Shown: one piece after another, positions 21,279 to 25,159 of the stretch | Layout: each line of letters starts with the position of its first letter | Position numbering within the stretch: position 1 is the stretch's first letter | Origin: a bacterium HR24 | GTDB taxonomy: Bacteria; Chloroflexota; Dehalococcoidia; SM23-28-2; HRBIN24 | Assembly (NCBI GenBank): GCA_002898715.1 | Contig: BEIA01000010.1 | Coordinates: forward strand, 1-34,532 | Length of the DNA stretch: 34,532 bases | Direction of reading: 5' to 3' | Notes under the pieces: model-generated | Database searches by the model: none | The model's input: only the letters and a program-made list of their open reading frames with translations | What the model was told of the DNA's origin: nothing | Translations under genes and position numbers: made by a program

Positions 21279-21354
21279 GGCCCCGTGGTGTAGCGGCCAA
21301 CATGCCTCCTTGTCAAGGAGGAGAGCGCGGGTTCGAGTCCCGTCGGGGCCGCCA
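21279..21354 (+). tRNA. tRNA-Asp (GTC), CCA encoded
   Basis: Acceptor GGCCCCG/CGGGGCC, anticodon arm CCTCC-TTGTCAA-GGAGG, T-arm GCGGGTTCGAGTCCCGT. Confidence 0.96.
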
Positions 21355-21484: not shown

Positions 21485-22402
21485 ATGCTGCAGAGGACCG
21501 ATGCCGGCACCACTACGGGCCTGGGCTGGGCGGAGTATCTGCGCCAGTGGGAGGTCCACCTGCGGGCGCGGGGGCTCGCCACCAGCACCATCGCCTGGTA
21601 CCTGGGCCTCATGCGGGAGGCAGCCGCGAGGCTGTCGGCCCTAGGCCTGCCCGAGGCCCCCGCCGCCATCACCCGGGAGCACATCGAGGAGGTCCTGGCG
21701 TCCCTCAGGGAGGGGCGCGCGCCCGAGACGCTGCGGGCCTACTACAAGGCGCTGCGGGCCTTCTACCGCTGGCTGCTGGACGAGGGGGAGGTGGCCCGCC
21801 ACCCCATGGAGCGGCTGCCCTGGCCCAAGGTGCCCCCCAGGGCGCCGCGGGGGGTGACGGCCGATGAGGTGCGGGCCATGGTGCGGGCCTGCGGGCAGGA
21901 CGTGCTGGGCCGCAGGGATGCTGCGCTGGTCGCCTTCCTGTTCGATACGGGCTGGCGGGCCTCGGAGGCCCTCCAGGCGACGGTGGCGATGGCCAGGGAG
22001 GGGACCTACCGCGCCTTGGCCAAAGGGGGGCGCGAGGTGGTGGCGACCCTCTCGCCCCGCGTCCAGGAGCTGGTCAACCGCTGGCTGCGGGCCCGGGCCC
22101 AGCTGCCGGGCGCCGGCCTTACGTCTGCCCTGTGGCTGGGGCGCAACGGCGAGCCCCTCACCCGCCACGGCCTTTACGAGATAGTCGCCGCCGCCGGCAA
22201 GCGGGTGGGGCTAGCCGTCCACCCCCACATGCTGCGCCACGGTCACGCCTATGCCTGGCTGGAGGCGGGGGGCGACGTCATGGACTTAAAGGAAAATCTG
22301 GGCCACTCGTCGGTGGCCGTGACCGAGACCTACCTGCGCTGGCAGGCGCGCGAGCGGGCACTGCGCGCCAGAGAGAGGCACGCGCCAGGGCTGGGCCTGT
22401 AG
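21485..22402 (+). CDS. int: Tyrosine recombinase/phage integrase
   Basis: N-terminal core-binding domain; catalytic residues in TGWRASEAL, HPHMLRHGHAY, LGHSSVAVTETYLRW; adjacent to tRNA. Confidence 0.93.
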   Translation: MLQRTDAGTTTGLGWAEYLRQWEVHLRARGLATSTIAWYLGLMREAAARLSALGLPEAPAAITREHIEEVLASLREGRAPETLRAYYKALRAFYRWLLDEGEVARHPMERLPWPKVPPRAPRGVTADEVRAMVRACGQDVLGRRDAALVAFLFDTGWRASEALQATVAMAREGTYRALAKGGREVVATLSPRVQELVNRWLRARAQLPGAGLTSALWLGRNGEPLTRHGLYEIVAAAGKRVGLAVHPHMLRHGHAYAWLEAGGDVMDLKENLGHSSVAVTETYLRWQARERALRARERHAPGLGL

Positions 22403-22450: not shown

Positions 22451-22478
22451 TTGACAGCCCTCGTTGTAAGGTTACAAT
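22451..22478 (+). promoter_or_regulatory. Promoter TTGACA-N16-TACAAT overlapped by palindromic operator TTGTAA-GG-TTACAA
   Basis: -35 22451-22456; -10 22473-22478; palindrome 22464-22477. Confidence 0.75.
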
Positions 22479-22512: not shown

Positions 22513-22749
22513 ATGACCAGGAAGATAACCGTCAACGACGTCAGGTACCTGGGGGGCGTCACGCTCCCGGGGCAGCGTGCCAGGTTCGCGGGGGCGTTCA
22601 GGGTTCCCCCGGGGTGTCTCGAGGTCTACGGCCTGGTGCGGCCCCGGGCCGGGACCCCATACATCCACTGGCGGCTGGGGCCGGCGACGCCCCAGGCGCT
22701 GGCTCTGGCACGGGAGCTGGCCCGCGCCCAGGCCGAAACGGGGGACTAG
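22513..22749 (+). CDS. Small prophage protein of unknown function
   Basis: MTRKITVNDVRYLGGVTLPGQRARFAGAFRVPPGCLEVYGLVRP...; downstream of promoter. Confidence 0.65.
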   Translation: MTRKITVNDVRYLGGVTLPGQRARFAGAFRVPPGCLEVYGLVRPRAGTPYIHWRLGPATPQALALARELARAQAETGD

Positions 22750-22825
22750 CGCCCCCGTCGCCCCGCAAATTCCTGCCGCCACCGCGGGGCCTGATGAGGC
22801 AGGGCGGCGGAGAAAGGAGGAGGCC

Positions 22826-23335
22826 ATGCTAATGTATGACTACAGCGACTACCCGCCGCTGGTGGCCTCCCGCCGCTGTCACGAGTGCGGACAGAGGCGC
22901 GAGGTGACCGTGCGCGGTGACGGCACGTTCTACGGGGCGTGCCGGCACCTGGCCGGGAAGCTGCGGGCCGCCATCCGCCGCCACCCGGAGCCGGTCGAGC
23001 TCTGGGGCGGGAGGCCTGGCTACGCGGTCGCCCCGGCGGGGGCGCTGAATGTGTTCCCCCGCCTTCCCTACACGAATATCGCCCCCTTCAACCCGTCCCG
23101 CCAGGTCCACATCCTGGGGCGGGCGGGGGGCGTGACGGTGGGGCTATGGCTGGATGAGGGCGAGTATGTAGCCCTCACCAGCCCCGAGCATTACCCGTGC
23201 GGGGAGGAGCCGCCCCGGGTCACCCTGGGGTGGCTGCGGGAGCGCCTGCTGGTGGCCGAGGACCAGTGGTCTCCGGCCACCGGCGACACCAAAATCTTCC
23301 TGCCTCTGGACGACGAGGGAGGGGAGGACGAATGA
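22826..23335 (+). CDS. Prophage hypothetical protein with N-terminal CxxC
   Basis: MLMYDYSDYPPLVASRRCHECGQRREVTV...; AAAGGAGGAGG SD; no family recognised. Confidence 0.7.
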   Translation: MLMYDYSDYPPLVASRRCHECGQRREVTVRGDGTFYGACRHLAGKLRAAIRRHPEPVELWGGRPGYAVAPAGALNVFPRLPYTNIAPFNPSRQVHILGRAGGVTVGLWLDEGEYVALTSPEHYPCGEEPPRVTLGWLRERLLVAEDQWSPATGDTKIFLPLDDEGGEDE

Positions 23336-23353
23336 GCCTCCCCTCCCTTTTTT
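23317..23353 (+). terminator. Intrinsic terminator/attenuator spanning a gene junction
   Basis: GGGAGGGGAGG (23317-23327), 9-nt loop ACGAATGAG, CCTCCCCTCCC (23337-23347), TTTTTT (23348-23353). Confidence 0.8.
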
Positions 23354-23937
23354 CGTCCCTGCTACCATTTCCCATCGATATCCCTACTGTCGATGTCGCC
23401 TCCCCCGCCGACCTCTCCGACCCCGCCATCGCCGAGGCCATCGCCGAGGCCGTGGCCAGGGAGGCCATGGCCCAGGGCGCATCCCCCCGCTGGGCCTGGG
23501 CCTATGGGGTGCTCGTGGCTGAGGTGGTCACGGGCTGGGCCGTCGGGCCCGGCGTCGAGCGGGAGGCTGCGGAGCTAGAGCGGGCCGCCGCCCGACTCAC
23601 CTCCCCCACTGGCCTGGAGGTGCCCCGCCTCTATGTGGCCCCCTCCTGGGAGGCGCTCCAGGCCCAGGCCGAGGACATCGCCCACTGGCTGGAGGCGGCC
23701 TGGCTGGAGGCACGGCGGCGGTCGCAGGAGGAGGGGGTGCGGTGGCTAACGGTCCGTGAGGCTGCCGCCGCCCTGGGGGTGCACCCCGAACACCTGCGGC
23801 GGCTGGTGCGGGAGGGGGTGTTCCCCGCCGCCGGCGTGCGCCGCATCGGCCAGGGGCGGGGGATGCTGCTCCTGCGGGAGGACATGGTGCTGGCGAGGGC
23901 GGCGAGGGGCGGGCACCGGCCGGGGCTGGGCCTGTAG
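23332..23937 (+). CDS. Excisionase-like helix-turn-helix DNA-binding protein
   Basis: C-terminal WLTVREAAAALGVHPEHLRRLVREGVFPAAGVRRIGQGRGMLLLREDMV; ATGA overlap with preceding ORF. Confidence 0.75.
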   Translation: MSLPSLFSSLLPFPIDIPTVDVASPADLSDPAIAEAIAEAVAREAMAQGASPRWAWAYGVLVAEVVTGWAVGPGVEREAAELERAAARLTSPTGLEVPRLYVAPSWEALQAQAEDIAHWLEAAWLEARRRSQEEGVRWLTVREAAAALGVHPEHLRRLVREGVFPAAGVRRIGQGRGMLLLREDMVLARAARGGHRPGLGL

Positions 23938-24595: not shown

Positions 24596-25159
24596 CTAGA
24601 GGCGGGAGACGATGCCGGTCAGGTCGTCCAGGACCAGGTGGGTGTAGACGGTGGTGGTCTGGATGCTCGAGTGGCCCAGGAGGCGCCGGACGGCCTCCAG
24701 GTTGCCCGAGCGGCGCAGGGCGGTGGTGGCGAACCAGTGGCGGAGGGCGTGGGGGTGCAGGAGGCGCCTGGGGACGCCTGCCTCCCTGCCCAGGCGCTCC
24801 ACCAGGTACTGGAGGGCGCGGGTGGTGATGGGGCGTCTGGGGTCCTGGGGCGATGGGAAGACGTAGGCGCTTCGCAAAAGTGACATTTTGCGAAGCGCCA
24901 GGAGCGCCTCCGCCACCCGAGGGTGGGCGGGCACGAGTCTGTCCTTGCGCCCCTTGCCCATCCTCACCCTGATGACCCCTCCCTCCACGTCGTCCCAGCG
25001 CAGCTTGGCCACCTCCGACACCCGCAGCCCGGCGTAGGCCATGAGGAGCACCGCCGCCAGGTCGCGGGGGCCCGAGGCCTCGGCCCGGGCGATGATGGCC
25101 TGGACCTGGGCGTCATCGGGCGCCTCGGGCAGGCGGCGGGGGGCGCGTCTCCTGGCCAT
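24596..25159 (-). CDS. Minimal tyrosine recombinase (catalytic domain only)
   Basis: 187 aa; LRVSEVAKLRW, GKGRKDRLVP, HPHALRHWFATTALRRSGNLEAVRRLLGHSSIQTTTVYTHL; lacks N-terminal core-binding domain. Confidence 0.9.
   Translation of the reverse strand: MARRRAPRRLPEAPDDAQVQAIIARAEASGPRDLAAVLLMAYAGLRVSEVAKLRWDDVEGGVIRVRMGKGRKDRLVPAHPRVAEALLALRKMSLLRSAYVFPSPQDPRRPITTRALQYLVERLGREAGVPRRLLHPHALRHWFATTALRRSGNLEAVRRLLGHSSIQTTTVYTHLVLDDLTGIVSRL
24866..24899. repeat. Perfect 14-6-14 inverted repeat (dif/loxP-like architecture) within recombinase ORF
   Basis: GGCGCTTCGCAAAA-GTGACA-TTTTGCGAAGCGCC. Confidence 0.9.

Follow-up and report, generated by a model that had tools for sequence, protein, structure and literature searches.

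A perfect hairpin across the overlap of two genes in bacterium HR24 as a candidate translational-coupling lock with a latent terminator

Does expression of one early prophage gene depend on translation of the gene before it? The question is raised by a hairpin at the junction of two overlapping genes, here called B and C, in the window (the whole stretch of bacterium HR24 DNA that we analysed, 34,532 nucleotides). A preliminary description of this DNA had reported an 11-bp perfect stem followed by six Ts at 23317-23353, with the Shine-Dalgarno (SD) sequence of gene C in the left arm and an ATGA start/stop overlap in the loop; the sequence bears out each of these points (Table 1). It had also assigned the right arm and T-tract to codons 3-7 of gene C. 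Both do lie in gene C, but the arm already includes the last base of codon 2 and the T-tract reaches the first base of codon 8.

Genes and a candidate ribozyme upstream of the junction

Genes A, B and C each scored as coding in the stated frame and in no other, and two genes stand between gene C and the integrase gene. Judging by its resemblance to the sigma-70 consensus, the TTGACA-16-TACAAT sequence in the gap after the integrase gene is likely the promoter of the early operon. From about 24 kb to the end of the window, the minus strand carries phage-type genes, namely an endolysin, probable tail genes and a second recombinase. A homologue search with gene B found none. Gene C had been called excisionase-like, a label for which its short C-terminal helix-turn-helix is the one feature; the excisionase domain model TIGR01764 was barely passed (29.1 bits, cut-off 28.8), and the N-terminal 130 residues had no match to a known family. 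On these domain matches, an excisionase identity would be premature.

Two observations concern the neighbouring phage genes. The minus-strand gene at 24596-25159 of the window encodes a 187-residue recombinase that lacks the N-terminal SAM-like domain and is 61% identical to a protein of a viral contig (L107), which also shares tail genes; it is probably a conserved phage gene. Within the minus-strand recombinase gene, at 24866-24899, lies a 14-bp perfect inverted repeat (GGCGCTTCGCAAAA/TTTTGCGAAGCGCC). A phage (L106/L107) with a tail-tape-measure-like protein of 59% identity and a recombinase of 61% identity showed no recognisable early operon up to the contig end.

Between genes A and B lies a candidate type II hammerhead ribozyme, near-perfect in its predicted form. 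The Rfam type II hammerhead model scored 33.6 bits here (E = 2.9e-5 in a search of 351 bases), short of its gathering score of 37. The core (CTGATGA, GAAA and GUC) is intact, stem II has 3 bp, and loop I and the 3' tail could form a 6-bp pseudoknot; the candidate sequence has the core, the three stems, the cleavable NUH and, as a possible pairing, the loop I/3'-tail pseudoknot by which type II hammerheads are recognised. Hammerheads of this type are known in prophages (PMC3088659). Loop III of the candidate holds the gene A stop codon TAG, and directly after the candidate comes the SD of gene B; likewise, several hammerhead matches above cut-off in genomes of the same class precede an SD-like sequence and a start codon. 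A strict pattern of core and three stems gave no second site in 1.07 Mb of the bacterium's own genome. If active, the hammerhead would sever the A transcript from B-C and leave gene B first in the message that bears the B/C hairpin.

Table 1. Features of the B/C junction and the surrounding locus (positions in the window)
Feature	Position	Strand	Basis or remark
tRNA-Asp gene	21279-21354		Precedes tyrosine recombinase gene
Tyrosine recombinase (integrase) gene	21485-22402		After tRNA-Asp gene
Promoter-like TTGACA-16-TACAAT, sigma-70-like	22451-22478	+	11/12 consensus match only; gap after integrase
Gene A, 78 aa	22513-22749	+	No family match; stop TAG 22747-22749
Type II hammerhead ribozyme candidate	22731-22808	+	Between genes A and B; Rfam match
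Hammerhead core	GAAA 22735-22738; CTGATGA 22791-22797	+	
Hammerhead stem III	22738-22744/22752-22758	+	7 bp
Hammerhead predicted cleavage site	After C22759	+	GUC
Hammerhead stem I	22760-22766/22784-22790	+	7 bp
Gene B, 169 aa	22826-23335	+	No known family; CxxC...CxxH-like motif; stop TGA 23333-23335 in hairpin loop
Outer helix, left arm GGACGA	23308-23313	+	Fold
Hairpin left arm GGGAGGGGAGG	23317-23327	+	Sequence, fold; holds gene C SD
Gene C SD GGAGG	23323-23327	+	4 nt 5' of ATG
Loop ACGAATGAG, 9 nt	23328-23336	+	Contains ATGA stop/start overlap, 23332-23335
Gene C, 201 aa	23332-23937	+	C-terminal helix-turn-helix, residues 138-176
Hairpin right arm CCTCCCCTCCC	23337-23347	+	Last base of gene C codon 2 to first base of codon 6
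T-tract TTTTTT	23348-23353	+	Sequence
Outer helix, right arm TCGTCC	23353-23358	+	Fold; present in read-through RNA alone

Fold, rarity and conservation of the B/C hairpin

The perfect stem of 11 bp becomes 12 Watson-Crick pairs when A23316-T23348 is counted, and stem and outer helix together amount to about 20 bp. The outer helix (GGACGA/TCGTCC) was absent from the preliminary description. Across 71 nt, the predicted minimum free energy was -39.1 kcal/mol, compared with -21.3 +/- 2.95 kcal/mol for shuffled sequences (z = -6.05; 0 out of 200 shuffles as good); the hairpin alone was predicted at -25 to -27 kcal/mol, and at -13.7 kcal/mol at 70 C. The terminator scan of the window had missed 23317-23353 because it permits loops of up to 8 nt and the loop here has 9 nt.

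Our scan of 1,065,520 bases of the bacterium's own genome (1.07 Mb, 52% of the assembly, taken as stretches) yielded six perfect stems of at least 8 bp with a T-rich tail, the B/C hairpin being the strongest. At 103 coding NTGA junctions, a number that is approximate since the gene calls came from a simple purpose-made codon-usage caller, the perfect stem enclosing the start codon reached 12 bp at B/C, followed by 9, 8 and 8 bp, with most at 3-5 bp; B/C was the sole junction with an enclosing perfect stem of at least 10 bp. Called coding sequence totalling 341 kb contained no sense T6 run other than the one at 23348-23353. Two codons of the right arm, CTT (3.9%) and TTT (7.9%), are disfavoured, and the product over the five codons is 1.4e-4.

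When both arms were recoded synonymously according to host codon usage, a stem of at least 11 bp appeared in 0.065% of 20,000 recodings, and 0 out of 20,000 had the T-tail as well. With the SD arm fixed and the right arm alone recoded, these frequencies were 4.4% and 0.39%, respectively, indicating that the purine-rich SD accounts for part of the hairpin and not for all of it. First-order Markov copies of 432 kb, in five replicates, contained zero stems of at least 11 bp with a T-tail. The combination of hairpin and T-tract exceeds chance expectation well; given a genome of about 2 Mb, it may conceivably be a rare by-product. By total minimum free energy, the B/C junction ranked 11 out of 103 NTGA junctions and others folded as stably overall, so that the unusual traits of B/C are its local perfect hairpin and T-tract, not its total folding energy. 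A lenient scan admitting weaker T-tracts showed no intergenic enrichment, and its step size skipped the B/C hairpin itself.

Several other structures were considered and set aside. Seven viral contigs contain this stem pattern too, three of them with the loop AATGAG, which we judged a coincidence: none has a clear T-tract, and the copy in L061, checked against open reading frames, is intergenic. A hairpin upstream of a gene at C1:49385, at first sight with a start codon in its loop, was rejected, the SD and likely start of that gene lying downstream; a possible frameshift site (CTT TTT TCG) was dropped when neither reading frame nor structure gave it support, and a minus-strand terminator at the B/C hairpin was rejected for want of a T-tract on that side. 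Elsewhere on own-genome contig C1, the region from 48 to 64 kb (L010, L011) has up to 14 perfect inverted repeats of at least 9 bp per 4 kb, compared with a mean of 1.1, many of them within called open reading frames. Two near-identical hairpins on this contig, at about 49385-49415 and 50820-50855, have a common tail (TTTTGTATTTGG) and are apparently duplicated terminators or attenuators.

The preliminary description had called for a check of covariation in relatives. Searches for gene C homologues by sequence and by a two-row profile, covering viral contigs, genome contigs, phages, 61 relatives and 393 genomes of the class, returned one paralogue and otherwise short helix-turn-helix matches only, leaving no second homologue to compare. 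This sole full-length homologue, in the bacterium's own genome (C1:123182-123709, minus strand, 42% identity), is similar to gene C from codon 1 onward, in support of the start assigned to that gene. The paralogue's own start keeps the ATGA overlap with the upstream open reading frame and has the SD GGGAGGA; the junction folds no better than its shuffles (z = +0.17), without the hairpin, the CCTCCC arm or the T-tract. The ATGA overlap is the conserved trait, and the hairpin would be either a later addition, a feature lost in the paralogue or an accident. The paralogue (L006/L059) stands between a 488-residue open reading frame of no known phage family and a directly following tyrosine recombinase, and the region is possibly a second mobile element.

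Predicted masking of the gene C start and possible termination at the junction

Our best explanation, to which we give about even credence from sequence and predicted folding, is that the B/C element is a translational-coupling lock of the prophage early operon with a latent terminator included. Genes B and C are co-directional coding genes that overlap by ATGA, and the SD of gene C is hidden in the predicted structure, with an unpaired probability of about 0 at both 37 and 60 C and the AUG in the loop; opening 23317-23347 was predicted to cost about 33 kcal/mol at 37 C and about 23 kcal/mol at 60 C. Hairpins around the ribosome-binding sites of coupled genes silence those genes until upstream ribosomes unfold them (PMC12548453; PMC6728339). 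On mRNA free of ribosomes at the end of gene B, the 12-bp hairpin would mask the gene C SD and leave free 30S subunits unable to initiate gene C, while ribosomes reaching the end of gene B would unfold the hairpin and then reinitiate, or admit new 30S subunits, at the overlapping ATG. The outer helix would be no aid to termination, since its bases are transcribed after the U-tract, and can only have a role in strengthening the lock in read-through RNA. The U-tract probably adds a latent intrinsic terminator that would fire mainly when gene B is untranslated, so that loss of gene B translation would silence gene C twice, through the masked SD and through the ended transcript.

We prefer the masking of the SD because the whole gene C SD is buried in the hairpin, and we regard it as the better-supported half of the explanation because it requires no assumption about RNA polymerase. 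From the sequence, the predicted fold, the rarity in the genome and the geometry of SD and overlap, we infer occlusion in vivo, ribosome-driven opening and termination; the best-supported of these inferences is that gene C would depend on gene B translation via the SD, not necessarily via termination. The preliminary description had proposed that upstream ribosomes melt the hairpin, expose the SD and permit read-through, making gene C dependent on them. The predicted SD occlusion, the loop geometry and the terminator score are consistent with that proposal, whereas the hairpin is absent in the sole homologue. Against a coupling lock we also count the stems of at least 11 bp that the SD arm alone brings about in the recodings and the other NTGA junctions with equally stable overall folds.

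In its sequence features, the B/C hairpin is a textbook intrinsic terminator, with a GC-rich stem of 11-12 bp, a 9-nt loop and a U-tract directly after the stem. Its T-tract has an nT score of 4.42, and its d score (d'Aubenton Carafa) is 42, compared with 27-33 for three likely real terminators of the same genome. These three belong to the other five sites with hairpin and T-tail in the 1.07 Mb, two of them lying 23 nt past a stop codon and one between genes, which makes it plausible that the host uses intrinsic termination. If the B/C hairpin is a terminator, transcripts would end there when untranslated and continue past it when translated; the gene B stop codon lies in the loop, so that gene B ribosomes would overlap the stem. 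Experiments in E. coli showed termination falling from about 90% to <10% when a stop codon stood 5 bp ahead of a terminator, and recovering once translation was removed; a terminator placed within a gene's first 100 bp, by contrast, stayed largely efficient although ribosomes were translating that gene (PMC4824070). By the footprints given there, a ribosome on the stop codon would collide with an RNA polymerase at the U-tract, and the effective block would instead come from a ribosome just upstream, on the left arm; a ribosome trailing closely would thus already cover that arm with the stop codon still ahead of it. The host encodes Rho, and Rho polarity would also be possible if gene B were untranslated. 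With a coding purine excess of -0.002, close to zero, the host resembles the species that couple transcription and translation in a survey (PMC13323073), which is weak evidence of coupling here.

Could termination at 23350-23356 be the main control, with read-through needing a ribosome close behind RNA polymerase through the end of gene B? The perfect stem followed by six Us has a d score of 42 and is the best in 1.07 Mb, the E. coli terminators placed at stop codons or early in a coding region (first 100 bp) show the behaviour that such an attenuator would need (PMC4824070), the stop codon is in the loop, and gene B is long enough for a ribosome to catch up. However, the sole homologue shows no conservation and we found no substantial competing antiterminator pairing, the left arm alone pairing weakly upstream, and we consider this possibility doubtful. 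The same stem and U-tract could also be a constitutive terminator that closes the A-B transcript, with gene C kept low via read-through, as where RNA polymerase outruns ribosomes. The two other strong T-tailed hairpins 23 nt past stop codons would fit such a role, but the hairpin begins within gene B and codes, in its right arm, for residues of gene C, the paralogue is similar from codon 1, no promoter-like site turned up between B and C, and the near-zero purine excess weakly opposes runaway transcription; we think it very unlikely.

That the hairpin has no function strikes us as rather unlikely. It would then be a by-product of a long purine-rich SD facing Leu-Pro-Ser codons, or a palindrome perfected by template switching, and the ATGA overlap alone would couple gene C to gene B. 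The paralogue, with an SD and ATGA and without the hairpin, speaks for this, as do the low complexity of the arms and the ease with which a fixed SD arm meets a complementary partner (the 4.4% of recodings); yet the frequency falls to 0.39% when the T-tail is asked for and to 0 out of 20,000 when both arms vary, the hairpin is unique among the 103 junctions, and the U-tract requires rare codons. We advance only tentatively the fullest version of the coupling lock, in which one hairpin would serve as terminator and as SD lock and a single upstream ribosome would release it in both roles, in an operon with a self-cleaving hammerhead at A/B, two RNA structures thereby tying each downstream gene to its neighbour's translation.

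Relation to known systems and meaning

The B/C junction shares overlapping stop and start codons, and an SD in a structure that ribosomes could open, with translational coupling by RNA unfolding (PMC12548453), as in genes VII and IX of phage f1; it differs in packing SD, AUG and stop into one short perfect local hairpin that is followed by a U-tract. As in pyrBI-type attenuation and the stop-codon terminators of the tR2 constructs (PMC4824070), a terminator hairpin overlaps the end of an upstream open reading frame, where a trailing ribosome would suppress it. By contrast, the upstream frame is a 169-residue gene and not a leader peptide, and the terminator doubles as the start region of the next gene. 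Ordinary intrinsic terminators have the same GC-rich stem and U-tract, but the B/C hairpin spans a coding junction and does not lie downstream of a gene, and its loop has 9 nt. Devices of this kind are known; what makes the B/C variant unusual is that SD, stop, start, terminator stem and U-tract are fused within 37 nt.

Should the hairpin prove not to work, it would warn against trusting striking hairpins in GC-rich genomes unless comparative or transcript evidence backs them. If lock and terminator are both real, these 37 nt would be a compact all-or-nothing coupler that makes the second of two overlapping genes dependent on the first at two levels, and would offer a natural test case for the distance between ribosome and RNA polymerase in a little-studied bacterial lineage.
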